This document shows positions 43,791 through 63,679 of a DNA stretch of 64,000 bases, piece by piece. The notes under the pieces were generated by a model. It was not told where the DNA came from, did no database searches, and was given only the letters and a program-made list of their open reading frames with translations. This stretch comes from Proteiniborus sp. DW1. GTDB taxonomy: Bacteria > Bacillota > Clostridia > Tissierellales > Proteiniboraceae. The first letter of the stretch is position 1. Each line of letters opens with the position of its first letter. The DNA is taken from contig NZ_FMDO01000007.1 of the NCBI RefSeq assembly GCF_900095305.1, forward strand, positions 62,001 to 126,000, given 5' to 3'. The translations under genes and the position numbers were made by a program.

Positions 43791-44663
43791 ATGAAACAAT
43801 TTTGTTACTATGCTCCATCAACAATTGAGGAAGCAGTAAAGATACTAACGGGAGCAGATGAGAATACTCAAATTATAGCCGGAGGGACTGACTTTATTGT
43901 TCAAATAAATCAAAAGATGATTTCTCCAGAAAAAGTAGTGGATATTAAAAAAATTAAGGAAATGAAGTATGTAAAAGAGGAAAATGGATTCATAAAGATT
44001 GGTGCTGCTACTAATTTTAGTGAACTAGACTGCTCTGAAATATTATTAAGAAAGGCTAAGGCTCTCGCTATAGCTTGTGGAGAAGTTGGCTCTACACAAA
44101 TTAGAAATCTAGGAACTATTGGAGGCAATATAGTAAATGCTTCTGCTGCAGGAGATTCTATAGCCGCTCTTATGGCTCTTGATGCTTCAGTTGTTTTAAA
44201 AAGTGAAAAAGAAGAAAGAGTTATGAAATTAGAAGAATTCTACCAGGGTCCTGGGAACTGCCAAATTAGAAAAGATGAACTATTGACTGAGATATTTTTC
44301 CAAAGTCCTAATGAAAGGACAGCTACAAGTTTTAAAAAGCTAGGAAAAAGAAAAGCTTTAGCTATAGTTGTTATAAGTGCAGGAGCTTTAATCGAAAAGG
44401 ATACTGATAACAAATGTACAAAGGCACAAATTTCATTAGGTGCTATTTCAAGATATCCAATAAGAGTTAGAGAAGCTGAAAAACTATTAATTGGAAAAGA
44501 ATTAAATGAGCAAAATATTGAAGCGTGTTTAGAGAAGTTAGCTGAAATAACAGACATCAGTGTTACCAACTCACCTTTTAAACACTTGGCCCTCTATAAG
44601 AGTTCAGCTATTAAGGGTATTGCAAGAGATATGTTTGCTGATATATTGGCAGATTTAAAATAG
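43791..44663 (+). CDS. ndhF: Nicotinate dehydrogenase FAD subunit
   Basis: 290 residues of the CO-dehydrogenase-type flavoprotein family: N-terminal FAD-binding IIAGGTDFIVQINQ and the middle TIGGNIVNASAAGDSIAALMALDA segment, then the C-terminal CODH_FAD domain. It carries electrons from the iron-sulfur subunit to NADP in the enzyme that hydroxylates nicotinate at C6. ATG 43791 after AGGAGGG is preferred to ATG 43773. It opens the sigma-54-driven operon ndhF-ndhS-ndhL-ndhM, the same four-subunit set as in Eubacterium barkeri. Confidence 0.93.
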   Translation: MKQFCYYAPSTIEEAVKILTGADENTQIIAGGTDFIVQINQKMISPEKVVDIKKIKEMKYVKEENGFIKIGAATNFSELDCSEILLRKAKALAIACGEVGSTQIRNLGTIGGNIVNASAAGDSIAALMALDASVVLKSEKEERVMKLEEFYQGPGNCQIRKDELLTEIFFQSPNERTATSFKKLGKRKALAIVVISAGALIEKDTDNKCTKAQISLGAISRYPIRVREAEKLLIGKELNEQNIEACLEKLAEITDISVTNSPFKHLALYKSSAIKGIARDMFADILADLK

Positions 44664-44693
44664 TATTATCTATCAAAAGAGGAGGTTTATATT

Positions 44694-45158
44694 TTGGAGA
44701 AAATAAAAATATCGTTTAACCTAAATAATGAAGATGTAACTATAGATATAAATCCAAATAAGAGATTAATAGACATGCTTAGAGAGGATTTTAAACTAAC
44801 AAGTGTTAAGGAAGGGTGTTCTGAAGGTGAGTGTGGTGCTTGTACTGTAATAGTAGATAGCTGTGCAGTAACTTCTTGTATTATGCTAGCTCCTCAAGTT
44901 CATGGAAGTACTGTAATTACCCTTGAAGGTTTATCTAAGAATGGCGATTTAGATAAGCTTCAACAGGCATTTATTGATGCTGGTGCTATTCAATGTGGTT
45001 TTTGTACTCCAGGAATGATACTTTCAGCTAAGGCTTTGTTTATGAAAAAATCTAATCCATCAAGAGAAGAGATTAAAAAAGCAATGTCAGGAAATATTTG
45101 TAGATGTACTGGATATAAAAAAATAATTGATGCAGTTGAAATAGCAAGAGATAAATAA
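44694..45158 (+). CDS. ndhS: Nicotinate dehydrogenase small [2Fe-2S] subunit
   Basis: 154 residues in two domains. Residues 1-80 are a plant-type [2Fe-2S] ferredoxin with CSEGECGACTVIVDSCAVTSC. Residues 81-154 are the four-helix domain of xanthine dehydrogenase-type enzymes with CGFCTPGM and GNICRCTGY. The two clusters link the molybdenum site in NdhL/M to FAD in NdhF. The start is TTG 44694, with GAGGAGG nine bases upstream. Confidence 0.95.
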   Translation: MEKIKISFNLNNEDVTIDINPNKRLIDMLREDFKLTSVKEGCSEGECGACTVIVDSCAVTSCIMLAPQVHGSTVITLEGLSKNGDLDKLQQAFIDAGAIQCGFCTPGMILSAKALFMKKSNPSREEIKKAMSGNICRCTGYKKIIDAVEIARDK

Positions 45159-45176
45159 ATGAAAGGAGGAACTAGA

Positions 45177-46451
45177 GTGGACAATTTAAATATAATTGGC
45201 AAGAGCGTTGAAAAAAAAGATTCACTTAGTAAAGCAATAGGTACAGCAATTTTTTCGGCTGATATAGAATTAGATAATATGTTATATGGTTCAGTTAAAA
45301 GAAGTACTGTAGCTTCTGCTATTTTAAAAAATATTGATACTAGTAAAGCAAAGGCGTTGCCAGGAGTTGCTGCTGTACTGACATACAAAGACATACCTGG
45401 AGATAATAGAGTAGGTATCATAATTAAAGATGAACCCATACTAGTTGATGACAAAATTAGAAGAATAGGTGATGCTCTGGCAATAGTTGCTGCTGAGACA
45501 AAAGAAATTGCCGAGGAAGCCTTAGATTTAATAGAAGTAGAATATGAAGAATTAGAAGGAATATTTACTATAGAAGATGCACTAAAAGAAGGGGTACATG
45601 CAATTCATGGAAACTCAAATGTTCTTCAAAATAAGGATTTGATTTTTGGTGATGTAGATGAAGCGTTTAAGCAATGTGATGTAATAGTTGAAGATACTTA
45701 TAAGACAAATTATTTTGCTCACATGTTTATCGAACCTGAGGCTGGTGTTGCCAAGTATGAAAACGGTATTTTAACATTCTGGAGCTCAACTCAGAATCCT
45801 CACTTTGATAGAGGCGAAGTGGCAAGAATGCTTAAACTTCCACAAAGTAAGGTTAGAAGTATTCAAGCTACTACAGGTGGTGGATTTGGAGGAAAGCTTG
45901 ATATATCAGTACAATGCCATGCTGCTTTATTGGCATATTATACTGGTAGACCAGTGAAGTTTGTTAGAAGTAGAGAAGAGTCTATGAAAGTTTCTTCAAA
46001 AAGACACCCTATGACTTTGAAGCTTAAAACAGGAGCAACAAGAGATGGAAAAATTTTAGCTTTAGATGCACATATAACAGGAGATACAGGTGCATACGCA
46101 TCATATGGACCTGCTGTTATAGGTAGAGCAATGACTCACTTAACTGGACCTTATGAGATTCCAAATGTAAGAGTTAAAGCAACTTTTGTATATACTAACA
46201 ACCCAATGGCAGGTGCATTTAGAGGCTTTGGAGTTCCACAAGCAGCTATAGCCCATGAAGGACAAATGGATTTACTTGCCAAAAAGTTAGGAATGGATCC
46301 AATCGAGCTAAGATTAAAGAATGCTCTAAGAGTTGGTTCTGTCACATCTACGGGTCAACTACTAACCGATGGTGTCGGTATAGTTGAGACTATAGAGAAA
46401 GCAGTGGAAAAAGCAAAAGAAGTGATTTTTACTGAAGGAGAGGTGAAATAG
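45177..46451 (+). CDS. ndhL: Nicotinate dehydrogenase large molybdopterin subunit
   Basis: About 424 residues, equal to the first half of the molybdenum subunit of xanthine dehydrogenase: an N-terminal a/b hammerhead domain (GVAAVLTYKDIPGDNRVG), then the first molybdopterin-binding domain with TTGGGFGGKLD, YTGRPVKFVRSREESM and GAFRGFGVPQA. The protein stops where other family members continue; ndhM supplies the rest. GTG 45177 is chosen, eight bases after AAAGGAGG; the ATG at 45159 lies before that site. The stop is two bases from the ndhM start. Confidence 0.93.
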   Translation: MDNLNIIGKSVEKKDSLSKAIGTAIFSADIELDNMLYGSVKRSTVASAILKNIDTSKAKALPGVAAVLTYKDIPGDNRVGIIIKDEPILVDDKIRRIGDALAIVAAETKEIAEEALDLIEVEYEELEGIFTIEDALKEGVHAIHGNSNVLQNKDLIFGDVDEAFKQCDVIVEDTYKTNYFAHMFIEPEAGVAKYENGILTFWSSTQNPHFDRGEVARMLKLPQSKVRSIQATTGGGFGGKLDISVQCHAALLAYYTGRPVKFVRSREESMKVSSKRHPMTLKLKTGATRDGKILALDAHITGDTGAYASYGPAVIGRAMTHLTGPYEIPNVRVKATFVYTNNPMAGAFRGFGVPQAAIAHEGQMDLLAKKLGMDPIELRLKNALRVGSVTSTGQLLTDGVGIVETIEKAVEKAKEVIFTEGEVK

Positions 46452-46452
46452 G

Positions 46453-47436
46453 ATGAAGAAAAGAGGAGTCGGAGTAGGATGTATGTGGTATGGAATAGGA
46501 AATACAGGATTACCAAATCCTGCTGCAGCCTTTGTAGAAGTACATGGAGATGGCTCTGTGACAGCTTTAGTTGGTTGTGCAGATATAGGACAAGGCTCTT
46601 CAACAGTAATGGCGCAAATTGTCGCTGAGACATTGGGAGTTAACTATGAAGATGTGAATGTGACTGCTGCTGATACAGGAGTGACACCAGAAGGTGGAGC
46701 TACTTCAGCAAGTAGACAAACATACATTTCTGGTAATGCGTGTCTTGCGGCAGCTAAAATGGCAAAAAAAACCTTAATAGAGGTAGCTGCTGAAGTTCTT
46801 GGTGTAGATGAGGAACTAGTCAACATTAAGAATAAAAAAGTAATAGTTACAAATGATGAATCAAAGCAAATGGATTTCTCTGTTCTTATGGATGAGATGA
46901 AGAAGAGAGGTAAGATTGCACTTGGAAGCGGTTCATTTAACCCTGATACAACAGCTCTAGATCCCGTTAACATGCAAGGTATACCATATGCTTGCTATGC
47001 ATATGCAACAAATATTGTAGAGGTAGAAGTAGATACAGAAACAGGAGAAGTACAAGTGTTAAAGGTAGTAGCTGCACACGACGTTGGACAGACTATTAAT
47101 GAAAAAATGGCTGAGGGACAAATAGAAGGTGGAGCTGCCATGGGAATGGGACTTGCTTTACTAGAAAAGGTTGAAGTAGAAAAAGGAGTTATTAAAAATC
47201 CAGGTTTTTCAAAGTATTTAGTTTATACAGCTGCGGATATGCCAGAAATATATCCAATACTTGTAGAAGATCCTACATTAACTGGGCCTTATGGTGCAAA
47301 GGGATTAGGAGAACCTGCTCTAATACCTGTAATACCAGCAATCTTAAATGCTATTTATGATGCTATTGGAGTTAGGTTTACTGAAGTTCCTGTAACACCT
47401 GAAGCAATAATAGAGGCATTAAAAAACAAAAACTAA
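46453..47436 (+). CDS. ndhM: Nicotinate dehydrogenase medium molybdopterin subunit
   Basis: 327 residues equal to the C-terminal half of a xanthine dehydrogenase molybdenum subunit: GCADIGQGSSTVMAQI, TPEGGATSASRQTYISG, and the active-site glutamate in GPYGAKGLGEPALIPV near residue 290. With NdhL it forms the catalytic site for C6 hydroxylation. The E. barkeri enzyme also has this split and contains labile selenium; its insertion factors are not seen in this window. AGAGGTG lies inside the end of ndhL, so the two are probably translated in a coupled way. Confidence 0.93.
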   Translation: MKKRGVGVGCMWYGIGNTGLPNPAAAFVEVHGDGSVTALVGCADIGQGSSTVMAQIVAETLGVNYEDVNVTAADTGVTPEGGATSASRQTYISGNACLAAAKMAKKTLIEVAAEVLGVDEELVNIKNKKVIVTNDESKQMDFSVLMDEMKKRGKIALGSGSFNPDTTALDPVNMQGIPYACYAYATNIVEVEVDTETGEVQVLKVVAAHDVGQTINEKMAEGQIEGGAAMGMGLALLEKVEVEKGVIKNPGFSKYLVYTAADMPEIYPILVEDPTLTGPYGAKGLGEPALIPVIPAILNAIYDAIGVRFTEVPVTPEAIIEALKNKN

Positions 47437-47459
47437 AAAAATATTAGGGGGTAGTTTCA

Positions 47460-48515
47460 TTGAGTAAAAATGAAAACACAGCGCCAGCATCAAAACAAAG
47501 CTTTTTAAAGAGGAAGAATATTGAAATCTCTGTTAAAAGGTACCTAATTGATGCCATGGGTACAATGGCACTTGGTCTTTTTGCATCCTTATTAATTGGT
47601 ACTATATTAAACACTTTAGGGACTAAGCTAAACATACCTTTTCTAAGTGAAACCTTGTGGCCTATAGCTAAAGATATGACTGGAGCAGCTATAGGGGTTG
47701 CCGTAGCTTATGGTTTACAAGCTCCTCCACTAGTATTGTTTGCTTCCACTATTACAGGTGCAGCGGGAAATGCATTGGGTGGACCAGCTGGAGCCTTTGT
47801 TGCAGCGGTACTTGGTGCTGAACTTGGTAAAATTGTATCTAAAGAAACTAAGCTTGATATTATAGTTACACCAGCAGTTACGATTATTGTAGGAGTTTTA
47901 GTTGGAACAGCTATAGGACCAGCAGTTAATGGATTTATGACAGCAACTGGTGAGTTAATAATGTATGCAACAACTTTACAGCCATTCTTAATGGGAATAA
48001 TAGTTTCTGTTATAGTTGGTATGGTTTTAACTCTTCCAGTTAGTAGTGCTGCTCTTTGTATGATGCTATCTCTTGGTGGAATAGCAGGTGGAGCTGCAGT
48101 TGCAGGATGTTGTGCTCAAATGGTTGGTTTTGCTGTGATGAGCTTTAAAGAAAATGGTTGGGGAGGATTAGTTGCACAGGGATTAGGAACATCTATGCTT
48201 CAAGTACCTAATATAGTTAAGAACTGGAAAGTATGGATTCCTCCTACATTAGTTTCAGCTATAACAGGACCTATGTCGACAATATTATTTAAAATGGAAT
48301 GTACTCCAATGGGTGCAGGTATGGGAACTAGTGGTTTTGTTGGACAATTTGGTACTATAGAAGCTATGGAGGCTGCTGGTAAAGGTGGAGCCATGATGTG
48401 GGTTGGAATCTTAGTACTACATATTTTAGTACCAGCTGTACTTACTCCTATAGTAGCTAATGTTATGAGAAAAATGGGCTGGATTAAAGAGGGAGACTTA
48501 AAGTTAAGCTTATAA
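47460..48515 (+). CDS. PfoR / PTS_EIIC_2-like membrane protein, candidate transporter
   Basis: A 351-residue protein with about nine glycine- and alanine-rich membrane segments. It matches the stand-alone EIIC-like family (COG3641, PfoR) as I know it: ITGAAGNALGGPAGAFVAAVLGAELGK, and the late MGAGMGTSGFVGQFGTI. No EIIA or EIIB partner is present, so sugar phosphorylation is unlikely. Being in the ndh operon, directly after ndhM, it may bring in nicotinate or a related acid; this is inference. The start is TTG 47460, about nine bases after AGGGGG. Confidence 0.75.
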   Translation: MSKNENTAPASKQSFLKRKNIEISVKRYLIDAMGTMALGLFASLLIGTILNTLGTKLNIPFLSETLWPIAKDMTGAAIGVAVAYGLQAPPLVLFASTITGAAGNALGGPAGAFVAAVLGAELGKIVSKETKLDIIVTPAVTIIVGVLVGTAIGPAVNGFMTATGELIMYATTLQPFLMGIIVSVIVGMVLTLPVSSAALCMMLSLGGIAGGAAVAGCCAQMVGFAVMSFKENGWGGLVAQGLGTSMLQVPNIVKNWKVWIPPTLVSAITGPMSTILFKMECTPMGAGMGTSGFVGQFGTIEAMEAAGKGGAMMWVGILVLHILVPAVLTPIVANVMRKMGWIKEGDLKLSL

Positions 48516-48649: not shown

Positions 48650-49732
48650 ATGAATGATTTAATACTTTACACCATATTTGCATTTGCTGTGCTAGGATGT
48701 ATTGATAAAATTATAGGAAATAAATTTGAATTAGGTGCCAAATTTACTGAAGGCTTTTTAGCTATGGGAAACCTAGCTATACCTGTAATCGGAATATATG
48801 CACTGGCACCTATAATTGGAGATATATTACTAAAAATTACTTTTCCTTTTTTTCAATTAACAAATATTGATCCTTCAATACTACCAGCATCTATATTTGC
48901 TGTTAATATGGGAGGATATGTTTCAGCTGTGAGAATGGCCCAAGCAACGGAAATGGGAGTTTTTTCTGGGATTATTTTAGCATCTACGTTAGGTGCAACG
49001 GTAGGTTTTACGATTCCTGCTGGAGTTGAAATTATTGAAAAAGAGGATCAAATCTATTTTGCTAAGGGAATATTAGCAGGAGTTGTTACTATACCATTAG
49101 GATGTATTGTAGGAGGTGTGGTTTTAAGGATTCCAACACTGATTCTTATACTTAATATATTACCAATTATGTTAATTGCTCTAATTTTTGCAATAGGTCT
49201 ATCGAGATGGCCAAATAAACTATTAAGAGGGTTTACATACTTTAGTAAGGTAACCACAACCATAGGTGCATTAGGAGTTATCTTAAGCATATTTGAGAGA
49301 ATTTCAGGGCTAAATCTGATAGCGGGCTTAGGTTCGTTTGATGAAGGGTTGAGAATAGTAGGAAGCATAACTGTAGTATTATGTGGTGCCTTTCCTATGA
49401 TTCATGTAATAACAAAAGTTTTCAAGAATTCACTTATGAGGCTTGGGAACAAGGTGGGGGTTGGAGAAAATGCTATTATTGCTATGTTGATCTCCTTATC
49501 AAGTAATGTCCCTGCTTTCATTATGATGAAGGACATGAATATTAAAGGAAAAGTTCTATTATCAGCTTTTATGGTGAGTGGAGCATTTACTTTTGGCGGT
49601 CAGCTTGGATTTGTAGCTAGTGTAGATAAAACTGCTATTATTCCATTCATTGTTGCAAAGATAATAGCTGGTTCTAGTGCAATTATTTTAGCTATGATAC
49701 TTATGAGAGAAAGTGTTGAAGCGAATATATAG
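48650..49732 (+). CDS. EutH-like membrane protein, candidate transporter
   Basis: 360 residues with about ten membrane segments, of the EutH (ethanolamine permease) family: FTEGFLAMGNLAIPVIGIYALAP, PSILPASIFAVNMGGY, and SSNVPAFIMMKDMNIKGKVLLSAFMVSGAF. No other ethanolamine utilisation gene (eutBC, shell proteins) is near, so the name should not be taken as function. It lies between the two nicotinate operons, ahead of the second sigma-54 promoter. GAGGGGG precedes the ATG. Import of nicotinate or export of a product such as propionate is possible. Confidence 0.8.
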   Translation: MNDLILYTIFAFAVLGCIDKIIGNKFELGAKFTEGFLAMGNLAIPVIGIYALAPIIGDILLKITFPFFQLTNIDPSILPASIFAVNMGGYVSAVRMAQATEMGVFSGIILASTLGATVGFTIPAGVEIIEKEDQIYFAKGILAGVVTIPLGCIVGGVVLRIPTLILILNILPIMLIALIFAIGLSRWPNKLLRGFTYFSKVTTTIGALGVILSIFERISGLNLIAGLGSFDEGLRIVGSITVVLCGAFPMIHVITKVFKNSLMRLGNKVGVGENAIIAMLISLSSNVPAFIMMKDMNIKGKVLLSAFMVSGAFTFGGQLGFVASVDKTAIIPFIVAKIIAGSSAIILAMILMRESVEANI

Positions 49733-49789: not shown

Positions 49790-49803
49790 TTTCAAAATTG
49801 AAT
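49790..49803. promoter_or_regulatory. Candidate activator site, hgd side, site 3
   Basis: TTTCA-AAAT-TGAAT, one base from the 43427 site, centred about 142 bases upstream of the -24 element. A one-mismatch TTACA-AATA-TGAAA copy follows at 49809-49822. Confidence 0.5.
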
Positions 49804-49873: not shown

Positions 49874-49887
49874 TTTCAAAAATGAAA
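49874..49887. promoter_or_regulatory. Candidate activator site, hgd side, site 4
   Basis: TTTCA-AAAA-TGAAA inside GCATTTCAAAAATGAAATATGC, about 55 bases upstream of the -24 element; identical to the word in the hairpin at 43510. Confidence 0.55.
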
Positions 49888-49936: not shown

Positions 49937-49954
49937 TTGGCACAATAATTGCTA
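49937..49954 (+). promoter_or_regulatory. Sigma-54 promoter for hgd operon
   Basis: TTGGCAC at 49937-49943, five bases, TTGCTA at 49949-49954: a full match to TTGGCAC-N5-TTGCW with 12-base GG to GC spacing. It lies about 65 bases before hgd. Confidence 0.92.
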
Positions 49955-50018: not shown

Positions 50019-50915
50019 ATGAAAATAGGTTTTATTGGCTTAGGGGTCATGGGGAAAAGAATGGCTGCTAATGTACTTAAGAGTGGCTACCAGCTTATAG
50101 TATCTGACCTAAATAATGATGCAGTAAAAGAATTGGTAGAGATGGGTGCAGAGGAAGGACAGACTCCTGCTGAAGTTGCAAAGGATGCAGATATTGTACT
50201 TACATCGCTTCCGAACTCTGCTATTGTAGAAAATGTTGTTTTAGGAGAAAATGGGATTCTAGAAGGTGCTAAAGAAGGAGCAGTAATAGTTGATTTAAGT
50301 AGTATAACACCAAAATCAATACAAAATATTGCTGAAAAAGCTAATCATAAAGGTGTAGAAGTTTTAGATGCTCCTGTAAGCGGTGGAGCAGCAGGTGCAG
50401 AAAAGGGCACTCTTACAATTATGGTTGGAGGAAATAAAGAGTCCTTTGAAAAGGCTCTCCCTGTATTAAATTGTATAGGAACTAAAGTATATCATGTTGG
50501 TGAAGTTGGTGCAGGAGATACAGTAAAGCTAGTGAATAATCTTCTACTAGGAGCTAATATGGTAGCAGTTGCTGAGGCTTTAGCTTTAGGAGTTAAGGCA
50601 GGTCTTAAACCAGATGTTTTATACGACATAATTAGTCAAAGCTCAGGTGCTTCATATGCATTAACGGCAAAATATAAAAACTTTATAGCTAAAGGTAATT
50701 TTGAACCAGGATTTATGATTGATTTGCAGTATAAAGATCTACAGCTTGCGGTAGATACTGCTAAGGATTTAAAGATGCCATTAATTATAGGAAACTTATC
50801 ACAGCAAATGTTTGAAGCTGCAAGAGCAAAAGGATTAGGAGCTGAAGATATCTCAGCTGTATTAAAGTTATATGAAGATTGGGGAAATATAGAAGTAAGA
50901 GAGGAGCGGGCTTAG
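50019..50915 (+). CDS. hgd: 2-(Hydroxymethyl)glutarate dehydrogenase
   Basis: 298 residues of the beta-hydroxyacid dehydrogenase family: NAD(P)-binding GFIGLGVMGKRMAANVLKSG, substrate-binding DAPVSGGAAGAEKGTLTIMVGG, and the catalytic lysine in GDTVKLVNN near residue 170. By family alone it could be tartronate semialdehyde or hydroxyisobutyrate dehydrogenase; position in a complete nicotinate cluster makes reduction of 2-formylglutarate to 2-(hydroxymethyl)glutarate by far the best call. ACAGGAGG precedes the ATG. It is the first gene of the second operon, and hmd starts two bases after its stop. Confidence 0.92.
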   Translation: MKIGFIGLGVMGKRMAANVLKSGYQLIVSDLNNDAVKELVEMGAEEGQTPAEVAKDADIVLTSLPNSAIVENVVLGENGILEGAKEGAVIVDLSSITPKSIQNIAEKANHKGVEVLDAPVSGGAAGAEKGTLTIMVGGNKESFEKALPVLNCIGTKVYHVGEVGAGDTVKLVNNLLLGANMVAVAEALALGVKAGLKPDVLYDIISQSSGASYALTAKYKNFIAKGNFEPGFMIDLQYKDLQLAVDTAKDLKMPLIIGNLSQQMFEAARAKGLGAEDISAVLKLYEDWGNIEVREERA

Positions 50916-50917: not shown

Positions 50918-52324
50918 ATGGAACTTAAGGCTATGATTAATGAAAGAATGCCATTGACTCTTGGAGACATAGTAGAAATTGCAGGTAAAATAGATGTAAG
51001 GTTTGTTGATGTAATTCTAGCTGAAGCGGAAATTCAGACAGGAAAAAATAGAGAAGAAGTGCTAGAAGAAGCGCTAAAAGAGTTTGAACATAATTTACAG
51101 GCAATAGAGCTGGGCCTAACTACAGGAAGCAGCTTACTTCTTGGTACAACTGGTTCAGAGCTAAATAATATGGAAGGTTTCAGACTATTTCAAGATGAAT
51201 TTGTAGACAAAGCTCTGGTATACACAATAGCTGCTCAAGTAGGAAATCATGGTATAGGACTAAATCCATGCGCAGGTACTGGAGATTCTTGTCCTTACAC
51301 AGGTTTTATTAAAGCAATGCTTGAAATTGGATATGAAAAAAGTAGGGTAGCAGAAATAGCTGCAATAATATTAAAAGTAGGTTCAATGTTTAGGGTGGGC
51401 AAGACAACTACTGGATGTAATATGGAAGGATTTGGTGCAGGCTCTGCAGCTATAGCAGCAGCAACAGTTGAGTTGTGTGGGGGTAGTGCAAAGGATGTAG
51501 AACGTGCAATGGTAATAGCGATATCCCCAACCATAGGCGTTCCATGTACCCCTAGAGTTATGGTTCCTGCACTATGTGCGACTCATATAGGAGGAGCTAT
51601 ATTAAATGGTATATTATCGGCTAAACTAGCTGTTAAAACAAGCATAGAAGTAAATGTGCCTATAGATGTAATGTTAGCTATGGCAGCTGAAATTCACCCA
51701 ATATCAGCTAAATCTTTAGTGCCTACAGTAGTAGAGTTTATGCAACCATTCTTTAAGACTAAAGAACCTGTGGAAAGATTGATAGATCAGAAAATTAAAG
51801 ATGAAGAGAAGGTTCATATAGAACAAACATTAGTTAAAGCTAAAGAAATAGCTAAGAGGTTGGCTAAAGGTGCTAAACCTATTACAAATACTTTAGGAGA
51901 AGCAGTTGTTGGAGGAAGTAGTCAAGCTGTTGGTTCACCAACAAATACGGGAAGAATCGCACACTTTTTATCAAAAGGAAAAATAAATAAAGTAAAAATC
52001 GAACTTTATCCCGAATTATTTGCACGTAGGGGAATAAATGTTCCAGGTGTGTTAATGGGAGCAGTATATGGCTCATCAACTGCAGATGGAAAAATGTATA
52101 AGGAAGTAATGGAATTAGTAGAGAAAGAAGGAATAGCAGTAGAAATAGTTAAAGTGGATGAGTATCAAGTTCAAAGAGTTACAATTGTAACTGATGAAGG
52201 AACATTCATGGTAGATGCATTAAATAGAGGTGGAGGAAGGCTGGTTCTTCGTGATGCTACACCTTCAAAACAGGAAGCTGTTAATATAGCTAATAAATTA
52301 GGTATAGTGCTAGTTGAAGCGTAG
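50918..52324 (+). CDS. hmd: 2-(Hydroxymethyl)glutarate dehydratase (serine dehydratase-like, iron-sulfur)
   Basis: 468 residues related to iron-sulfur L-serine dehydratases, with both halves in one chain. The alpha-like region has NPCAGTGDSCPYTGF, GKTTTGCNMEGFGAGSAA and PTIGVPCTPRVM, whose cysteines are probable [4Fe-4S] ligands; the beta-like region follows (GGSSQAVGSPTNTGRIAHFL). It would remove water from 2-(hydroxymethyl)glutarate to give 2-methyleneglutarate. True serine dehydratase is the alternative, but the place between hgd and dmdA decides. ATG 50918 follows GAGGAGCGG and gives the natural N-terminus MELKAMINERMPL. Confidence 0.87.
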   Translation: MELKAMINERMPLTLGDIVEIAGKIDVRFVDVILAEAEIQTGKNREEVLEEALKEFEHNLQAIELGLTTGSSLLLGTTGSELNNMEGFRLFQDEFVDKALVYTIAAQVGNHGIGLNPCAGTGDSCPYTGFIKAMLEIGYEKSRVAEIAAIILKVGSMFRVGKTTTGCNMEGFGAGSAAIAAATVELCGGSAKDVERAMVIAISPTIGVPCTPRVMVPALCATHIGGAILNGILSAKLAVKTSIEVNVPIDVMLAMAAEIHPISAKSLVPTVVEFMQPFFKTKEPVERLIDQKIKDEEKVHIEQTLVKAKEIAKRLAKGAKPITNTLGEAVVGGSSQAVGSPTNTGRIAHFLSKGKINKVKIELYPELFARRGINVPGVLMGAVYGSSTADGKMYKEVMELVEKEGIAVEIVKVDEYQVQRVTIVTDEGTFMVDALNRGGGRLVLRDATPSKQEAVNIANKLGIVLVEA

Positions 52325-53551: not shown

Positions 53552-54070
53552 ATGGACAAGATAAAAGGAAAAGCATTTATGCTTGATGAAAATGTCGATA
53601 CAGATCAAATACTTCCTGGATATGCCATGAGCTATCCAGTAGAAGAATTGAAAAAGGTCACACTAAAAGGAAGTATAATTCCAGATTTCCCAGAGAGAGT
53701 TAAACCAGGGGACATAATAATAGCTGATCATAACTTTGGATGTGGTTCTAGCAGAGAACAGGCACCTGTAGCACTAAAAAGCTCTGGAGTAGGAATAATC
53801 ATAGCTAAATCATTTGCAAGAATCTTTAGGAGGAATGCGATAAATATCGGACTTCCAGTAGTGACTTGTGAGTATATAAGGGAAATTAGAAAAGAAGCAA
53901 AAGAAAATGATGAGTTTGAAGTAGATTTAATTAAAGGCACAATAACTAACTTGAGAACACAAAATCAGTACAAATTAAATCAACTCTCTGAAACCACACT
54001 TGAAACACTAAAAGCAGGTGGACTGATTAATAAAGTTAGACAAAAACTTATGAAAAGGGGTGCTATCTAA
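53552..54070 (+). CDS. dmdB: 2,3-Dimethylmalate dehydratase small subunit
   Basis: 172 residues of the LeuD-type swivel domain: [39 protein letters not shown] and [16 protein letters not shown]. It completes the active site of DmdA. ATG 53552 after GGAGGGG is the likely start; an in-frame ATG at 53504 lies inside dmdA. Its stop overlaps the mgm start as TAATG, showing tight coupling. Confidence 0.92.
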
Positions 54071-55955: not shown

Positions 55956-57104
55956 ATGGAACAGATTAAAACACCTGTTGTTATTATGAGAGCTGGTACA
56001 AGTAAGGGAATCTTTATTAAAGAAGAAAATTTACCTAAAGACCCAAAAGAAAGAGATGAACTTATATTAAAAATATTTGGAAGCCCAGACATCAGGCAAA
56101 TTGATGGCTTAGGTGGGGCAGATCCATTAACTAGCAAACTAGCTATTATAGGACCATCTACAAGAGAAGATGCAGATGTTGACTACACATTTGGACAAGT
56201 ATCTTATGTAGCACCAAAAATAGATTATTCAGGAAATTGTGGAAATATCTCTGCAGGCGTTGGACCATTTGCAGTAGATGAAGGGCTTGTAAAGGTTGAG
56301 GAACCTTTCACAACTGTAAGAGTACACAATACCAATACAGGTAAATTAATAATTGAAAGAGTTGAAGTTGTAAATGGTAAGGCTAAAGTAACAGGAGACT
56401 ATAGCATAGCTGGAGTTCCTGGAACAGGCTCAGAGATAGTAATTGACTTTTCAGATACAGCTGGGGCAGCAACTGGAAAGCTTCTGCCTACAGGCAATGT
56501 AATAGATAAAATAGATGTAACAGGATATGGTGAGATAGAAGCTTCTTTAGTAGATGCAGCAAATCCTGTTGTATTTGTGAGAGCAAAAGATTTGGGCTTA
56601 ACAGGTATTGAGACACCATCACAAATAGATGAAAATAAAGCGATGTTAGCTACCCTTGAGGAAATAAGAGGAAAGGCTGCTGTTATGATGGGATTAGTAA
56701 AGGATTGGAAAAATGCAGTTAAAGAAGCTCCTGCATTTCCAATGATAGCATTTATTTCTCCAGCCCAAGACTATGTTGATTTTACAAAAGGTAAAGAAAT
56801 AAGCGAAAATGATGTGGACTTTGTTTCAAGACTTATGTTTATGCAAGTTGTTCACAAAACTTATGCTGGCACAGCAACTATCTGTACTGGAGCAGCTGCG
56901 AGAATAGAAGGTACAATAGTAAACGAAGCAATGAATGCAAAGGGCAAAGGCAAGAATGAAATTCTTAGAATAGGTCATCCAGCTGGAGTAATAACAATAG
57001 AAGTTGCTGCTAGCAAAGTGGATAATTGCTGGAAACTTGAAAAAGCTGCAATAAACAGAACTGCAAGGAGAATCATGGATGGCAACTGTTATACAGTAAA
57101 ATAA
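55956..57104 (+). CDS. mii: 3-Methylitaconate delta-isomerase
   Basis: 382 residues of the PrpF / diaminopimelate epimerase fold: VVIMRAGTSKGIFI at the start, GLGGADPLTSKLAIIG, and DYSGNCGNISAGVGPFAVDEG. Lys61 and Cys95 match, within one residue, the Lys62 and Cys96 I recall from the E. barkeri enzyme. It moves the double bond of (R)-3-methylitaconate to give dimethylmaleate. GAGGAGG precedes the ATG, 26 bases after mgm. PrpF or aconitate isomerase is the family alternative; neighbours settle it. Confidence 0.95.
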   Translation: MEQIKTPVVIMRAGTSKGIFIKEENLPKDPKERDELILKIFGSPDIRQIDGLGGADPLTSKLAIIGPSTREDADVDYTFGQVSYVAPKIDYSGNCGNISAGVGPFAVDEGLVKVEEPFTTVRVHNTNTGKLIIERVEVVNGKAKVTGDYSIAGVPGTGSEIVIDFSDTAGAATGKLLPTGNVIDKIDVTGYGEIEASLVDAANPVVFVRAKDLGLTGIETPSQIDENKAMLATLEEIRGKAAVMMGLVKDWKNAVKEAPAFPMIAFISPAQDYVDFTKGKEISENDVDFVSRLMFMQVVHKTYAGTATICTGAAARIEGTIVNEAMNAKGKGKNEILRIGHPAGVITIEVAASKVDNCWKLEKAAINRTARRIMDGNCYTVK

Positions 57105-57112: not shown

Positions 57113-58534
57113 ATGAAAATGCAAAAGTACGATTATTTAATTATAGACATAGGAAGTACTTACACAAAGCAAAGGCTGTTTAAAGACTTTGAATTAGTGG
57201 CGACTGTTCAGTCGCCTACTACAGTGGAAAATGTTTATAAAGGAATAAAAGCTGGACAGGACATTATAAAGACAACATTAAGTGAGAGTAAAATAGAATC
57301 GGAACATGTTTTAGCTTCTAGTAGTGCAGCAGGTGGACTAAGAATGGTAGCCATGGGATATATGACTAGAGTTACTGCAAAGGCAGCAAAAGAGGTAGCT
57401 ATGAACTCAGGTTCTAAAATACTGGAGATAGTCTCTAATGAAAATCTACCAGAATACAGAATACAGATTTTAAAGGAAATAAATCCAGATATCATACTTT
57501 TAGCTGGTGGAACTGATTTTGGAGATGAATCTTCACTTATAGAAAATGCACATTTAATAGTAGAAAGTAAAGTCAAAGGTGTAGTAATTATAGCTGGTAA
57601 TATAAGTGCCCAGGCTGAGGCTGCTCAAATATTAAAGGCTGGAAATGTGGCTCATTTAAGAGTTCCAAATATAATGCCCACTATTCATAAGCTAAGAGTA
57701 AAGGAAGCTAGAGAAGCCATTCATAAAGAATTCATTAAACAAATTACTAAAGCACAGGGGTTGAGTATATTACAAGAAGAGATTACTAATGATAAAATCA
57801 TACCTACTCCTGGAGCAGTTTTAATGGCATCTGAGTTACTAGCTAAAGGAACTTATTTAGAAAAAGGAATAGGTGAAATAATCGTAGTTGATTTAGGAGG
57901 AGCAACTACTGATATTCACTCAGTAATACCTGGCTATGCTAATCTAGAGGATGAAGAAATCGGTCTTATTGTAAGCAATGAAAAACAGATATCCTATAGA
58001 ACCGTTGAAGGTAATTTAGGTATGCGTATTAGTGCTATGGGGGTTATAGATGTAGTAAGTCCTAAAGCTATCTTCCACAAAAGAGGAATTAAAGATGAGA
58101 AGTTACTAGAAGAGTTTATTCAGTATTGTATGGAGGTAGAAAGGACGCCTAGGCATATAGCGCAGAACGAAAAGGAATATATGTTTGACACACTTATTGC
58201 AGAAACAGCCGTTGAAGTAGCTTTGAAAAGGCATGCAGGATTTATCTCTACAGTTGCCGACCCCATAACGGGTCTTATGCCAGGAATGCCAGTGGGTAGA
58301 GATTTGAGAAATGTGAACACTATAATCGGCGTTGGAGGGATTTTTTCCCATAGGGATGTTTCAGAAGGAAAAGAGATAATAAGAAATGCATTAAAAGATA
58401 AAGGCATTTCGCTCTTACCAAATGATCCGAAAATAATAATTGATGAAAACTATATATTATATACTGGCGGGCTTATATCTCAGATTGATGAAGATTATGC
58501 ATTTAAGGTACTAAAGAATAGTTTTAAATTATAA
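57113..58534 (+). CDS. MutL/GlmL-type protein, probable reactivase for the B12 mutase
   Basis: 473 residues of the MutL family of ASKHA ATPases (unrelated to mismatch repair MutL). The N-terminal phosphate loop is IIDIGSTYTKQRLF, LLAGGTDFG lies near 130, and the second nucleotide site is VVDLGGATTDIHSV near 260. In glutamate fermenters glmL sits between glmS and glmE and is thought to replace damaged B12 cofactor on the mutase. Here it lies two genes after mgm, which suggests the same service for methyleneglutarate mutase. AGGGATGG lies before ATG 57113; ATG 57119 is also possible. Confidence 0.87.
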   Translation: MKMQKYDYLIIDIGSTYTKQRLFKDFELVATVQSPTTVENVYKGIKAGQDIIKTTLSESKIESEHVLASSSAAGGLRMVAMGYMTRVTAKAAKEVAMNSGSKILEIVSNENLPEYRIQILKEINPDIILLAGGTDFGDESSLIENAHLIVESKVKGVVIIAGNISAQAEAAQILKAGNVAHLRVPNIMPTIHKLRVKEAREAIHKEFIKQITKAQGLSILQEEITNDKIIPTPGAVLMASELLAKGTYLEKGIGEIIVVDLGGATTDIHSVIPGYANLEDEEIGLIVSNEKQISYRTVEGNLGMRISAMGVIDVVSPKAIFHKRGIKDEKLLEEFIQYCMEVERTPRHIAQNEKEYMFDTLIAETAVEVALKRHAGFISTVADPITGLMPGMPVGRDLRNVNTIIGVGGIFSHRDVSEGKEIIRNALKDKGISLLPNDPKIIIDENYILYTGGLISQIDEDYAFKVLKNSFKL

Positions 58535-58551: not shown

Positions 58552-59418
58552 ATGAAAAAAACTACAATATTAAGACAATTACTAAATTCTAAGGAAATAC
58601 TAGTAGCTCCAGGAGCACATGATGCATTAACAGCAAGAGTTATAGAAAAATCAGGATTCAAAGCAATATACATGACAGGATATGGACAAGCAGCTAGCGT
58701 GTTAGGTAAGCCAGACATTGGCTTATTAAGTATGACTGAAATGTTAGATAGAGCTAGAAAATTTGCAAGTGCAGTAAATATACCGGTTATAGCAGATGGA
58801 GATACTGGATTTGGTAATGCCATAACAGTAATGAGAACTGTAGAAGAATATGAAGCAGCAGGGGTTGCAGCTATTCAACTTGAAGATCAGGTTGCACCTA
58901 AAAGATGTGGACATATGCTTGGAAGAAAAGTAGTAAGCCTAGATGAAATGGTTGGTAAAATAAAAGCAGCTGTAGCAGCTAGAAAAGATCCAGATTTCGT
59001 CATAATAGCTCGTACAGATGCACGTACTATTCATGGAATTGACGAAGCAATAAGAAGAGCGAAGGCTTACGAAGAAGCTGGTGCTGATGTAATATTTGTA
59101 GAATCAGTTGAAAGTATAGAGGAAATGAAAAGAGTAAATGAAGAAATCAAGGTTCCTACATTAGCTAACATGGTTGAAGGTGGTAGAACTCCACTTTTAT
59201 TAAATAAGGAGCTAGAAGATATAGGGTATAGTCTAGTTATTTACCCAACAGCATCAACATACGTAACTGCAAAAGCTATGTTTGATCTAATGGAAGCACT
59301 AAAATTAAATGGAACTACTGCAAAAAGTATTGACAAGATGATAACATTCTCAGATTTTAATGATTTAGTAGGATTGGGAAATTATGCAGAGCTTGAAGAC
59401 AAATATGTAAGGGAATAG
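58552..59418 (+). CDS. dml: 2,3-Dimethylmalate lyase
   Basis: 288 residues of the isocitrate lyase / PEP mutase family: APGAHDALTARVIEKSGFKAI, PVIADGDTGFGNA, the loop KRCGHMLGRKVV with the catalytic cysteine, and IIARTDART. It splits (2R,3S)-2,3-dimethylmalate to propionate and pyruvate, the last step of the pathway. 2-Methylisocitrate lyase (PrpB) is the closest alternative, but no methylcitrate cycle genes are present. GGAGG precedes the ATG. A 97-base gap to ena follows without an obvious promoter. Confidence 0.93.
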   Translation: MKKTTILRQLLNSKEILVAPGAHDALTARVIEKSGFKAIYMTGYGQAASVLGKPDIGLLSMTEMLDRARKFASAVNIPVIADGDTGFGNAITVMRTVEEYEAAGVAAIQLEDQVAPKRCGHMLGRKVVSLDEMVGKIKAAVAARKDPDFVIIARTDARTIHGIDEAIRRAKAYEEAGADVIFVESVESIEEMKRVNEEIKVPTLANMVEGGRTPLLLNKELEDIGYSLVIYPTASTYVTAKAMFDLMEALKLNGTTAKSIDKMITFSDFNDLVGLGNYAELEDKYVRE

Positions 59419-59515: not shown

Positions 59516-60676
59516 ATGTCAAGATTAGGTATTAAAAATATTGGAATTTTAGTGACAGGAGATGTAAAAAATCCTATTTCAAATGCAACCACAATTATAG
59601 TAGAAGATGGTAAAATTCTAAAAATAGGAGATGAAAGACTCTTAGATGAATTTAGATGTGACAAAATAGTAGATGCGAAAGGAACAACTGTAGCACCTGG
59701 CTTTATTGATTCACATGTTCATCCTGTATTAGGAGACTTTACACCTAGACAAAGTACAATTGGGTTTATAAATAGCTCTTTACATGGTGGAGTAACTACA
59801 ATGATTTCAGCAGGAGAAGCTCATACTCCTGGTAGACCAAAGGACCCAGCAGGAACTAAGGCGTTAGCTATATTAGGACATAAAAGCTCAAAAAATGCAA
59901 GACCAGGAGGAGTAAAGCTTCATGGTGGGGCCTTAATTCTTGAAAAAGGATTAGTTGAAAAAGACTTTGAAGAACTTGCAAAAGAAGGTGTTTGGTTAGT
60001 AGGAGAAGTAGGTCTTGGCTCAGTGAATAGTCCTGATTTAGCAGCACCAATGGTAAAGTGGGCTAAGAAAAATGGCTTTAAAGTTATGATGCACACAGGT
60101 GGAACTTCAATTCCTGGAAGTAGCACTATAACAGCAGATGATGTTATAAAAACAGACCCAGACGTGGTTTCACATATAAATGGTGGGCCTACTGCAATAG
60201 CACCAGAAGAAGTTGACAAAATAATTGAAAACACTAATATGGCTTTAGAACTTGTACAATGTGGAAACTATAAGGTAATGAAACATACTGTTAATATGGT
60301 GAAAGCAAGAGGTCAATTAGAGAGACTTATTGTTGGAAACGACTCTCCATCAGGTTCAGGTATAATACCTCTAGGCATTTTAAGAACTATGTCATATGTA
60401 GCTTCAGAAACAGATGCCACAGCTGCAGAAGCTATTTGCTTTGCAACAGGTAATACAGCTAAGGTTTATGGATTAAATGTTGGATTTATAGAAGAAGGAA
60501 GAGAAGCAGATTTTGTAATCATGGATGCACCATTAGGTTCAATAGGTGAAGATTCCTTAAAGGCTTTAGAAGCAGGAGACATTCCAGGAGTATCAATGGT
60601 AATAATAGATGGAGAAGTAATGTTTATAAAGAGCAAAAATACACCACCTGCAACTCATAGTGCAGTTATCTGTTAA
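59516..60676 (+). CDS. ena: Enamidase (6-oxotetrahydronicotinate hydrolase)
   Basis: 386 residues of the amidohydrolase superfamily: metal ligands His67 and His69 in GFIDSHVHP, a likely bridging glutamate in LVGEVGLGS, MMHTGGTSIPG, SHINGGPTA, and the catalytic aspartate in VGNDSPSGSG. It opens 1,4,5,6-tetrahydro-6-oxonicotinate to 2-formylglutarate and ammonia. The E. barkeri enzyme is a binuclear metal hydrolase of the same length. AAAGGGAGG precedes the ATG; hnr follows 23 bases later. Confidence 0.95.
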   Translation: MSRLGIKNIGILVTGDVKNPISNATTIIVEDGKILKIGDERLLDEFRCDKIVDAKGTTVAPGFIDSHVHPVLGDFTPRQSTIGFINSSLHGGVTTMISAGEAHTPGRPKDPAGTKALAILGHKSSKNARPGGVKLHGGALILEKGLVEKDFEELAKEGVWLVGEVGLGSVNSPDLAAPMVKWAKKNGFKVMMHTGGTSIPGSSTITADDVIKTDPDVVSHINGGPTAIAPEEVDKIIENTNMALELVQCGNYKVMKHTVNMVKARGQLERLIVGNDSPSGSGIIPLGILRTMSYVASETDATAAEAICFATGNTAKVYGLNVGFIEEGREADFVIMDAPLGSIGEDSLKALEAGDIPGVSMVIIDGEVMFIKSKNTPPATHSAVIC

Positions 60677-60699: not shown

Positions 60700-62217
60700 A
60701 TGATTGAAGTCATACTGGATAAATGTAAAGGATGTAGCATATGTGTTAAAAACTGTCCATTAGATGCTATAGAAGTAAAGGAGAAAAAGGCTTATACAAA
60801 TGAAAACTGTGTTTCTTGTGGTATTTGTACCAGAGTATGTCCTTTTAAAGCAATTGTAAGAACAGATGAACAAAAACCAGAGACTATAAGGTGTACTCAT
60901 TGTCCTGTTGGATGTACAATACCAGTAGGCAAAACAGGTGCATGTAAGAGATACACAAATGTTAGTGGAGAAATTATAAGAAATAGAAAGCTAGTTGTTG
61001 ATGCAATAACAACTATTCCTAAAACAGAAAGTTTGCCTTATAAGCCTATTGTAACAGCGGTAGGTAGCGGGACAAGCTATCCATGCTGTCGTCCTGCGCC
61101 ATTTATCGTTCAAGATAATGTAGAAGGTGTGGATGTTGTAACTGTTGTAACAGAAGCACCTCTTAGTTATAGTGGTGTGAAAGTTAAGATAGATACTAAT
61201 ATGCACATTGGAGAAGAAGGAGCAAAGGTTAAAAGAGATGGCAAGGTTGTTGGAATGGTAACAACTGAAGAGTATGGTGCAAAAATGCTTACAATAGGTG
61301 GTGCTAATCTTCTTAGCAATGGTAATGATGGATTTATTGTCGCTAGGACTATTGTAGACCTTGCAAATGGTAGAAAGGTTACATTAAAAGTAGAAAATGG
61401 AAGCACACTAGAACTACAGCAAGGTGAAGCGCCTATTATAGATGGTTTAAAGGAAAAGCTTATGAGGGTAGGCTGTGGTAGTGCAACCGTAGGGCTATTT
61501 GCAAGATACTTAAGTAAGGTAGTAGATGAAGCAATAATCTTAGACTACCATGTTATTGGGCTTCTTTCAGAACATCTTGCTGGTGAAGAAGTAGGAATGA
61601 AATATAGTGGAGTAATTCCTTATGGAGTTAAAAGTACAAGAGGAAGATACTTTGGAAATCATGGACATGGTTGGGGTGGAACTGAAATAGTAGACCCAAT
61701 TAATGCAGTAGTATCTGTTAATATGGATATTGCTAAGCCAGGATACAAGATTTTAGTAACTGAAACTACTGGGCAAAAAGCTGCTTTACTAGAAGTCCAA
61801 GCAAATGGAACAGTAAAAGAAATACCAATGACAGAGGAAGTATTGAATGCAGTTAAGTTAATATCAGACACCTGTGAAGAGTCACGAGTTTCAGTAATTT
61901 ACACTGGAGGAACTGGTGGAAGTGCAAGAGGAGGAGTGACTAATCTCCCAAGAAAATTAACTGATGCTATACATGGCGAAGAAGTTAGAATGACTGTAGC
62001 TGGTGCTCCTGTATTTATTCTTCCTGGAGGAGGAATAAACTTTATGGTAGATGTGGCAAAGATGATTCCAGAGGCTACAACTTGGGTTCCAACTCCTGCT
62101 ACTGTAGCCCCAGTTGAGTACACTATGACTAGGGACAAATATGAAGCTCTTGGAGGTCATACAGAGCACATAATCACTAAAGATGAGCTATTAAAAATGC
62201 TAGGAAAAGGGGAATAA
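60700..62217 (+). CDS. hnr: 6-Hydroxynicotinate reductase
   Basis: 505 residues. Residues 1-55 are a two-cluster ferredoxin domain (C9, C12, C15, C19 and C37, C40, C43, C47). A third cysteine set, C65, C68, C72 and C82, lies in CTHCPVGCTIPVGKTGACK. The rest (about 90-505) is the Hnr core with many glycine turns (YTGGTGGSARGGVTNLPRKL, FILPGGGINFMVDVA). It uses reduced ferredoxin to turn 6-hydroxynicotinate into 1,4,5,6-tetrahydro-6-oxonicotinate; the E. barkeri enzyme is reported to hold flavin, some covalently bound. AGAAAGGAG precedes the ATG. ena upstream consumes the product. Confidence 0.93.
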   Translation: MIEVILDKCKGCSICVKNCPLDAIEVKEKKAYTNENCVSCGICTRVCPFKAIVRTDEQKPETIRCTHCPVGCTIPVGKTGACKRYTNVSGEIIRNRKLVVDAITTIPKTESLPYKPIVTAVGSGTSYPCCRPAPFIVQDNVEGVDVVTVVTEAPLSYSGVKVKIDTNMHIGEEGAKVKRDGKVVGMVTTEEYGAKMLTIGGANLLSNGNDGFIVARTIVDLANGRKVTLKVENGSTLELQQGEAPIIDGLKEKLMRVGCGSATVGLFARYLSKVVDEAIILDYHVIGLLSEHLAGEEVGMKYSGVIPYGVKSTRGRYFGNHGHGWGGTEIVDPINAVVSVNMDIAKPGYKILVTETTGQKAALLEVQANGTVKEIPMTEEVLNAVKLISDTCEESRVSVIYTGGTGGSARGGVTNLPRKLTDAIHGEEVRMTVAGAPVFILPGGGINFMVDVAKMIPEATTWVPTPATVAPVEYTMTRDKYEALGGHTEHIITKDELLKMLGKGE

Positions 62218-62219
62218 TT

Positions 62220-63059
62220 ATGCTCAAAAAGCTTCAAGATGAAAGGATATTTATACACCATGGGCCTATACAAATGGTAATAGACGTATCAATAAAAGGA
62301 CAAAGAAATTCAGAAATAGGTGCTGAAGTAGGTAAGCATGTATTAGAACAATTTGATAAGCTAATACAATACATCCCCCAACTAAAAAAAATGCGAACCT
62401 ATAGAAGAACCAGTAACGAATTTCCTGAAGTCCTAAATAAAATGATCGTTGCTGTTGAAAAGAGTGGATATGAAGAACTTAATACTCTTGGAGCTGTGGC
62501 AGGTTCCTTTTCTGATATAGCTCTTCAAAAAGCGATGGAGCTAGGTGGAACTAGAATTATTATAAATAATGGTGGAGATATAGCATTAAAGGATTTAGAA
62601 GGAAAACCAATTAAGGTTGGGATTCCATATACAAATGATAAAGAAAGGGCTCAACTAATTTTAACAATTACTGAAAAACAAGATATTCACGGTATTTGTA
62701 CTAGTGGTATTGGCGGAAGAAGTTTTACGAAAGGTATAGCTACTGCTGCAGTTGCTTTAGCATCTGATGCAGCTACAGCAGATGCTTGTGCCACCTATTT
62801 AGGTAACATGACTAATATAGAAGACGATAATATCATTCGATGTCTCGCTGAAGAAATAGATTCAGAGACTGATATCAAAGGGCAAATGATTACGCTAAAA
62901 GTAGGCGAGATTAGTGAAGAAAAAAAGTATAGGGCACTATTAAATGGACTTAACGTAGCAGAGGATTTGCATAATAAAAAAGTAATAAAAGGTGCCATAA
63001 TCTTGATAGGAAATACAATAGTAAAATACCCAGATAGCTTAACTGTTGAATCTATTTAA
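62220..63059 (+). CDS. UPF0280 family (ApbE-like) protein
   Basis: 279 residues. It has VIDVSIKGQRNSEIGAEVGK near the N-terminus, AVAGSFSDIALQKAMELG, NNGGDIALK and a central SGIGGRSFTKGIATAAVALA stretch with DAATADACATYLGN, features of UPF0280. This family shares the fold of ApbE flavin transferases but has no established function. It starts two bases after the hnr stop with GGGG just before the ATG, so it is translated with hnr. A role in attaching or handling the Hnr flavin is an attractive inference; Hnr shows no canonical ApbE target motif. Confidence 0.8.
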   Translation: MLKKLQDERIFIHHGPIQMVIDVSIKGQRNSEIGAEVGKHVLEQFDKLIQYIPQLKKMRTYRRTSNEFPEVLNKMIVAVEKSGYEELNTLGAVAGSFSDIALQKAMELGGTRIIINNGGDIALKDLEGKPIKVGIPYTNDKERAQLILTITEKQDIHGICTSGIGGRSFTKGIATAAVALASDAATADACATYLGNMTNIEDDNIIRCLAEEIDSETDIKGQMITLKVGEISEEKKYRALLNGLNVAEDLHNKKVIKGAIILIGNTIVKYPDSLTVESI

Positions 63060-63094
63060 ATATAATATTTGTGAGAATTAAGGAGGCTTTACAA

Positions 63095-63679
63095 ATGGAT
63101 ATTAAAATCAGAAAATACTATACTTTTGTAGAAGAAATTAAAGCTGATGGCGGAAAAGAAGTAGAGGGAAGCCATAAAAGAGTATCAATAGCAGTAGTGT
63201 TTGAGAATCCATATGCTGGTAAATATGTAGAGGATCTCTCTCCCTTATCTGATTGGGCTGCTTCAGTAACACCAGATTTAGTAGATAGAGCACTAAAAGC
63301 AGCAGGTATTGAAGTAAATGAAGCTGAAAGCTACGGGAAAGCTGCTATAGTAGGTGGAAATGGAGAGCTTGAGCATGCGGCAGCACTACTCCATCCAACA
63401 TTAGGAAAACCATTTAGAGATGGATTAGGTGGAGGAAAGGCAATAATCCCTTCAGCAAAAAAAATGGGTTATCCAGGCTGTGCAATAGATGTTCCACTAC
63501 ATTTTAAAGATGCAGCATTCGTAAGAACACACTTTGATGCAATGGAAGTAAGAGTACCTGATGCTCCAAGAGACAATGAACTAGTGTTGATATTATCAGT
63601 AACAAATTGTGGAAGACCTCATCCAAGAGTTGGTGGACTACAAAAAGAAGAAGCTAAATGTGAAGATGGTTTAAGATAA
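63095..63679 (+). CDS. AA_synth / DUF1185 family protein
   Basis: 194 residues. KRVSIAVVFENPYAGKYVEDLSPL, GKAAIVGGNGELEHAAALLHP and FRDGLGGGKAIIPSAKKMGYPG are typical of the DUF1185 'amino acid synthesis' family, whose biochemical activity is unknown. Members tend to occur beside amidohydrolases and ring-degrading enzymes, which fits here. ATG 63095 follows AAGGAGG; the upstream in-frame ATG at 63071 lacks such a site. It is the last gene of the second nicotinate operon, before the terminator at 63751. All known pathway steps are already assigned, so its job is open. Confidence 0.8.
   Translation: MDIKIRKYYTFVEEIKADGGKEVEGSHKRVSIAVVFENPYAGKYVEDLSPLSDWAASVTPDLVDRALKAAGIEVNEAESYGKAAIVGGNGELEHAAALLHPTLGKPFRDGLGGGKAIIPSAKKMGYPGCAIDVPLHFKDAAFVRTHFDAMEVRVPDAPRDNELVLILSVTNCGRPHPRVGGLQKEEAKCEDGLR

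Follow-up and report, generated by a model that had tools for sequence, protein, structure and literature searches.

A 64,000-nucleotide stretch of the genome of Proteiniborus sp. DW1 (G000:C7:62001-126000, in a genome of 3.12 Mb in 62 contigs), which we call the window, carries 18 genes arranged head to tail on the plus strand, spanning positions 43,791 to 63,679 of the window, or about 20 kb. Pfam and NCBIfam assigned all 18 genes to families, in agreement with the family names of a preliminary description of this DNA, which had read the locus as a complete nicotinate fermentation pathway of the Eubacterium barkeri kind. Every gene named there is a real plus-strand open reading frame (ORF) of the claimed family, and a candidate is present for each step of the E. 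barkeri pathway, with the E. barkeri enzyme as the closest relative of solved structure for five enzymes. Here we describe the cluster, its probable regulation and the partnership between 6-hydroxynicotinate reductase (Hnr) and a protein of the UPF0280/COG2122 family; the sigma-54 regulation and the significance of UPF0280 are additions to the preliminary description.

The first four genes encode a nicotinate dehydrogenase with a split molybdopterin subunit, as in the E. barkeri-type cluster. The gene ndhF for the flavin adenine dinucleotide subunit (43791..44663; PF00941 and PF03450) is best started at 43,791, because AGGAGG precedes this position. It is followed by ndhS (44694..45158; PF01799 and PF00111), encoding the subunit of two [2Fe-2S] clusters with the cluster cysteines intact, and by the genes of the large and medium molybdopterin subunits, ndhL (45159..46451) and ndhM (46453..47436). 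The best Protein Data Bank (PDB) matches of the latter two are the E. barkeri chains 3hrd_A (E=1.7e-176) and 3hrd_B (E=1.6e-122, the next match being at 9.2e-50). NdhL and NdhM are separate chains here and fused in several relatives (L004, L007, L010); to our knowledge, separate chains are a trait peculiar to E. barkeri. Elsewhere in the genome are selD with an in-frame TGA and a gene for YqeB (TIGR03309), a selenium-hydroxylase maturation protein that serves as a marker of such enzymes (PMC2276186). The two genes provide the selenium supply that a selenium-dependent hydroxylase would need, and selenium in NdhFSLM itself is putative.

The enzymes of the later steps show a similar pattern. The 2-(hydroxymethyl)glutarate dehydrogenase Hgd (50019..50915), the 3-methylitaconate isomerase Mii (55956..57104) and the enamidase Ena (59516..60676) have the E. 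barkeri structures 3cky (5.6e-89, next 1.8e-74), 3g7k (1.2e-147, next 5.4e-82) and 2vun (1.3e-156, next 6e-10) as best PDB matches, so that across the five enzymes with solved E. barkeri structures the E. barkeri match is mostly far ahead of the next family. Catalytic motifs are intact in Ena (HxH at 67/69 and E164), in the coenzyme-B12-dependent 2-methyleneglutarate mutase Mgm (54070..55929; PF02310, DxHxxG at 487), in the large subunit of dimethylmalate dehydratase, DmdA (52341..53546; PF00330 and NF001614, aconitase-type cysteines 277, 337 and 340), and in the 2,3-dimethylmalate lyase Dml (58552..59418; PF13714, KRCGH at 117). The small subunit DmdB (53552..54070) scores above the cut-off of the LeuD/DmdB family TIGR02087. 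A MutL/GlmL-family protein (57113..58534; PF13941, and TIGR01319 above cut-off) probably reactivates the B12 mutase; its gene is next to mii wherever a cluster contains the latter. The 2-(hydroxymethyl)glutarate dehydratase gene hmd (50918..52324), of serine-dehydratase-like type, occupies a constant position after hgd in most other clusters, which backs its assignment. Judged from the sequence, hmd and dmdB likely start downstream of their longest-ORF starts, at about 50,918 and 53,552, respectively.

Scanning with Hnr yielded 16 named loci, which include those of Sedimentibacter acidaminivorans, Clostridium magnum, Pelosinus propionicus and several Sporomusa. In loci for which enough DNA was fetched, the usual core is hgd-hmd-dmdA-dmdB-mgm-mii-mutL(-dml), with local losses and rearrangements. 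A second genome of the same genus (G399) has the identical gene order at 82-96% identity, minus EutH. Hnr was found in all 3 genomes of the genus and in none of 28 genomes from other genera of the order; therefore, its distribution is patchy. The preliminary description had named matches of hgd, hmd, dmdAB and dml to unrelated pathways as an outcome that would overturn it. This outcome was not observed: Hgd finds the E. barkeri enzyme as its best PDB match, and in other genera hmd, dmdAB and dml keep the company of mgm, mii and hnr.

Thus, that the cluster is a further case of the pathway type already known from E. barkeri is well supported. Two points weigh on the other side: hmd is the weakest assignment, matching SDH_alpha (PF03313) at 32.7 bits and 8.2e-8, barely over the cut-off, and the E. 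barkeri cluster was compared solely through its enzymes with solved structures. Substrate specificity is not readable from sequence, and the gene neighborhoods of proteobacterial Hnr relatives are diverse and in some cases include hydantoinase- or acetophenone-carboxylase-like genes, as would be expected if the cluster acted on a different pyridine or on a precursor of nicotinate, or were silent. We consider this very improbable, since the matches of NdhL and NdhM to the nicotinate dehydrogenase of E. barkeri far exceed those to other molybdenum hydroxylases and every later pathway step is represented in the cluster.

The conversion of nicotinate to propionate, pyruvate and ammonia is established for E. 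barkeri, whose pathway and gene cluster are reported in Alhapel et al. (2006). In the corresponding scheme for the window, nicotinate would be hydroxylated by NdhFSLM, probably with labile selenium, and then reduced by Hnr, before Ena opens and deaminates the ring. Reduction by Hgd and dehydration by Hmd would follow, and then a B12-dependent rearrangement by Mgm, which the MutL-like protein would keep active. Isomerization by Mii, hydration by DmdAB and cleavage by Dml would finally yield propionate and pyruvate. We infer these reactions in Proteiniborus sp. DW1, as well as induction by the activator described below, from the gene content.

The reductase gene hnr (60700..62217) encodes a 2[4Fe-4S] ferredoxin domain. 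The protein contains 16 cysteines in total, including the eight of the two [4Fe-4S] motifs and Cys65, Cys68, Cys72 and Cys82, in keeping with iron-sulfur (Fe-S) sites of the ferredoxin type. Foldseek gave no convincing match for the core fold (model with a mean predicted local distance difference test score, pLDDT, of 70). VIA and Pfam gave a weak hint of a GCV_T_C-like barrel at residues ~156-250, and the rest of the core is without a recognized fold.

Immediately downstream lies the UPF0280 gene (62220..63059). A UPF0280 gene directly follows hnr in 16 of the 16 named loci, even where ena and the DUF1185 gene have moved. Among 398 genomes drawn evenly from the phylum, full-length Hnr is present in 15, and these 15 are precisely the genomes with UPF0280 of the Hnr type (threshold E<1e-75); the Hnr of G042 is divided between the ends of two contigs. 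At 15 of the 16 places that the two genes share, 8-101 bases separate them, and the remaining place has a gap of 3.2 kb. The co-occurrence gives a Fisher p of 1.7e-27, a value that ignores shared ancestry, although the 15 genomes represent 11 families by label. The pairing extends to proteobacterial plasmids, whose Hnr is ~42% identical to that of the window: in all 26 plasmid records with Hnr, UPF0280 comes directly after it on the same strand, at a distance of -1 to 167 bases and in one case of 596. A divergent extra Hnr paralogue (G368:C22:112668-114170; 597-aa frame, E=4.6e-140) has no Hnr-clade UPF0280 on its contig. A 27th plasmid with UPF0280, Hydrogenophaga pBPS33-1, is the only one without Hnr; every UPF0280 copy that was inspected there has IS1071 as its immediate neighbor, and the copies look cut off from a former neighbor. 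On this plasmid of Hydrogenophaga sp. BPS33 (L090), positions 4600-23000 contain a repeated IS1071-bounded unit with UPF0280, which resembles a catabolic cluster that was truncated and amplified.

A second clade of UPF0280 (E ~1e-20 to 1e-26) lies downstream of DUF39 (PF01837) genes at 57 of 59 places, and all 30 fetched DUF39 loci hold UPF0280. Where a genome has both Hnr and DUF39, for example G201, G298 and G371, there is one UPF0280 per partner. DUF39/PF01837 is absent from the window's genome; therefore, the single UPF0280 there cannot serve DUF39. The ordinary ApbE of this genome is a separate gene on contig C44. Hnr was also considered as a distant DUF39 homologue and this idea was rejected, as the hhalign match was merely short and local and, at E 0.04-0.08, not stronger than those of unrelated pairs (0.03-0.37), and searches with hidden Markov models found nothing. 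The partnership of UPF0280 with Hnr is well supported, and Hnr is most likely the only protein that UPF0280 serves. Our literature searches found no paper that connects COG2122 with Hnr.

The near-fixed adjacency and perfect co-occurrence would also fit if UPF0280 were a subunit of Hnr, with a structural or electron-transfer role, and not an enzyme of its maturation. We regard this as unlikely, because UPF0280 keeps putative metal- and nucleotide-binding enzyme motifs and the E. barkeri Hnr abstract reportedly names no second subunit. An AlphaFold2 model of UPF0280 (mean pLDDT 92) matched by Foldseek, at E<=0.001, exclusively the DUF375 structure 2o34 or members of ApbE/Ftp/FmnB. VIA gave Z 22.3 for 2o34 and Z 14-17 for ApbE structures over 205-218 residues, indicating that the modeled protein adopts the ApbE fold. 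The motifs NGGD, TSG and ADxxxT are largely kept in both UPF0280 clades and align with those of ApbE (hhalign E 0.009, at low probability). The conserved residues D120, T161-G163, D188 and T192 correspond to the GG(D/N) and TSG motifs and the metal-site Asp/Thr.

The Hnr of E. barkeri reportedly contains covalently bound flavin, according to the abstract of Alhapel et al. (2006). Because of the ApbE fold and this flavin, we propose UPF0280 as a flavin transferase that attaches covalent flavin to Hnr, and judge the chances of this proposal to be about evenly balanced. Several points weigh against it. The covalent flavin is a literature report on the E. barkeri Hnr, and a motif search showed the flavinylation motif [DN]xx[ST]GA[ST] to be absent from Hnr. 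Residues of Hnr that are invariant in both phyla, and among which an attachment site might lie, include Thr119, Thr125, Thr148, Thr151, Thr189, Ser261, Ser312, Thr313, Thr328, Thr356, Thr357 and Thr465. The HHxxDP segment of ApbE falls in a gap of the UPF0280 profile alignment, UPF0280 has no invariant His, and its score of 22.8 bits is below the curated PF02424 cut-off of 25.6 bits. In addition, earlier authors stated that COG2122 does not retain the flavin-binding region of ApbE (PMC5764234).

UPF0280 may instead mature Hnr in another way, such as persulfide or Fe-S cluster delivery, having kept the ApbE fold and lost its flavin chemistry. Earlier work suggested such delivery as the role of COG2122 in homocysteine synthesis through DUF39, and the partner of the second clade, DUF39, has a conserved cysteine that carries persulfide. 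The 16 cysteines of Hnr and the missing HHxxDP segment would suit this alternative as well. The extended alignment with ApbE structures and the motifs largely conserved in both clades speak against it, and no dedicated partner such as UPF0280 is known to be required by ordinary Fe-S proteins; we consider delivery less likely than not. A broader form of the flavin transferase proposal is that UPF0280/COG2122 represents a cytoplasmic ApbE branch of two clades, one flavinylating Hnr and the other doing the equivalent for DUF39; its target site and its catalytic residue would then differ from those of ApbE. We put this forward tentatively, as somewhat less than an even prospect.

Upstream of ndhF lies the gene of a sigma-54-dependent activator with AAA+ and Fis-type helix-turn-helix domains (41850..43424, plus strand), which is likely the regulator of the cluster. 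The palindrome TTTCAAAATTGAA at 43427..43439 is a candidate upstream activator site, and a second palindrome at 43510..43522 lies inside a hairpin that may instead terminate the activator gene. They precede a sigma-54 -24/-12 box, TGGCAAGGCTTTTGCA, at 43695..43710 before ndhF. The region before hgd has candidate activator sites TTTCAAAATTGAA at 49790..49802 and TTTCAAAAATGAA at 49874..49886, followed by the -24/-12 box TGGCACAATAATTGCT at 49938..49953; all these elements are given on the plus strand. The 13-mer TTTCAAAAWTGAA occurs in 4 copies in the 64 kb against 0.07 expected, with a pair of copies in either intergenic region; the pattern was picked after the sites had been seen, so that the enrichment is overstated. 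We consider the TTTCAnnnnTGAAA sites candidate binding sites of the activator. The -24/-12 pattern derived from the ndhF and hgd sites has no further match in the window, and the looser pattern TGGCAN6TTGCW has 3 matches against 0.37 expected.

Full-length homologues of the activator, with 49-55% identity, adjoin the clusters of L007, L010, L012, L015 and L016. Similar palindromes of the GCATTTCAnnnnTGAAATGC type precede ndh or hgd in L007, L010, L012, L013, L015 and L016, and in L011 one lies near a sigma-54 box. These palindromes and homologues in other loci are independent support for sigma-54 control. The cluster is probably expressed as two sigma-54 operons, one led by ndhF and the other by hgd, and a probable operon terminator (63751..63778, plus strand; a hairpin followed by TTTT, z -4.7) lies after the last gene.

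The N-terminal ~190 aa of the activator (41850-42420) have no Pfam match and show two similar segments of ~95 aa by eye; this part is kept at full length in Sporomusa-type loci and is a possible sensor of nicotinate or an intermediate. Directly upstream of the activator is a glutamate dehydrogenase gene (40313-41572), found in the same place in G399 (L092). Methyl-accepting chemotaxis genes lie at 37819-39906 (minus strand) and 34753-36855 (plus strand) of the window, at 12373-14379 of L013 and at 12368-13204 of L006; the receptors of 34753-36855 and L013 are of dCache type. Such receptors occur near nicotinate clusters in several genera and could be nicotinate chemoreceptors. Positions 31339-34583 encode an acyl-CoA dehydrogenase and EtfB together with a CarE-like EtfA that carries an N-terminal 2[4Fe-4S] domain; the three may form an electron-bifurcating complex.

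The preliminary description had also counted an EIIC-like, a EutH-like, the MutL-like and the UPF0280 gene, together with a DUF1185 gene, as traveling with the pathway. This holds widely for MutL, UPF0280 and DUF1185, and for the EIIC-like gene in three other genomes; EutH is in no other cluster inspected. The EIIC-like membrane protein (47460..48515; PF13303) is encoded after ndhM and adjoins the ndh genes in the same way in G399, G298 and G052 (loci L091, L094 and L099); therefore, it is a fair candidate for the nicotinate carrier. The EutH-like membrane protein (48650..49732; PF04346) has no copy in any other cluster inspected, including that of the same-genus G399, and is therefore not supported as a pathway component. 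Other transporter genes are seen elsewhere, of the major facilitator superfamily in Sporomusa-type loci and of the sodium:sulfate-symporter type in C. magnum. The G298 locus (L094) has two ena copies flanking its ndh genes, at 3273 and 12677, with 74% and 70% to the ena of the window. The DUF1185/AA_synth gene (63071..63679; PF06684) follows hnr-UPF0280 in many clusters, yet is widespread without Hnr too, and a role specific to Hnr was rejected, as 386 plasmid records have DUF1185 and 26 have Hnr.

Taken together, we hold with high confidence that this is an E. barkeri-type nicotinate fermentation locus, probably of two sigma-54 operons under the upstream activator, in which UPF0280 most likely serves Hnr alone, with attachment of covalent flavin as its proposed ApbE-like chemistry. 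The pairing bears on two questions, the source of the covalent flavin of Hnr and what COG2122 does. Compared with the ApbE flavin transferases (PF02424), UPF0280 has the fold and the NGGD, TSG and ADxxxT motifs in common, whereas it lacks HHxxDP and scores below the cut-off, and its partner Hnr is without the usual target motif. COG2122 of the DUF39 pathway, genetically required for homocysteine synthesis, belongs to the same family and likewise is a dedicated gene beside its partner; however, it is of a different clade with a different partner, DUF39, a gene that the window's genome does not have (PMC5764234). The aerobic nicotinate clusters of the Azorhizobium/Bradyrhizobium type (PMC3511419) share ndh, hnr and ena with the window. 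Related proteobacterial plasmids share the adjacency hnr-UPF0280-DUF1185, and no mgm, mii, dmd or dml was seen in the inspected plasmid loci. Unlike the Hnr of the window, the proteobacterial protein lacks the N-terminal 2[4Fe-4S] domain, and several of its loci lie near a ferredoxin-NADP reductase gene. The closest system is that of E. barkeri, whose enzymes, with NdhL/NdhM in two pieces, are reportedly the same and whose chains are the top PDB matches, in a comparison made through the enzymes of solved structure. A pathway worked out in one organism is thus placed in an independent lineage, together with a conserved gene set and a candidate regulator and promoters that are open to test.

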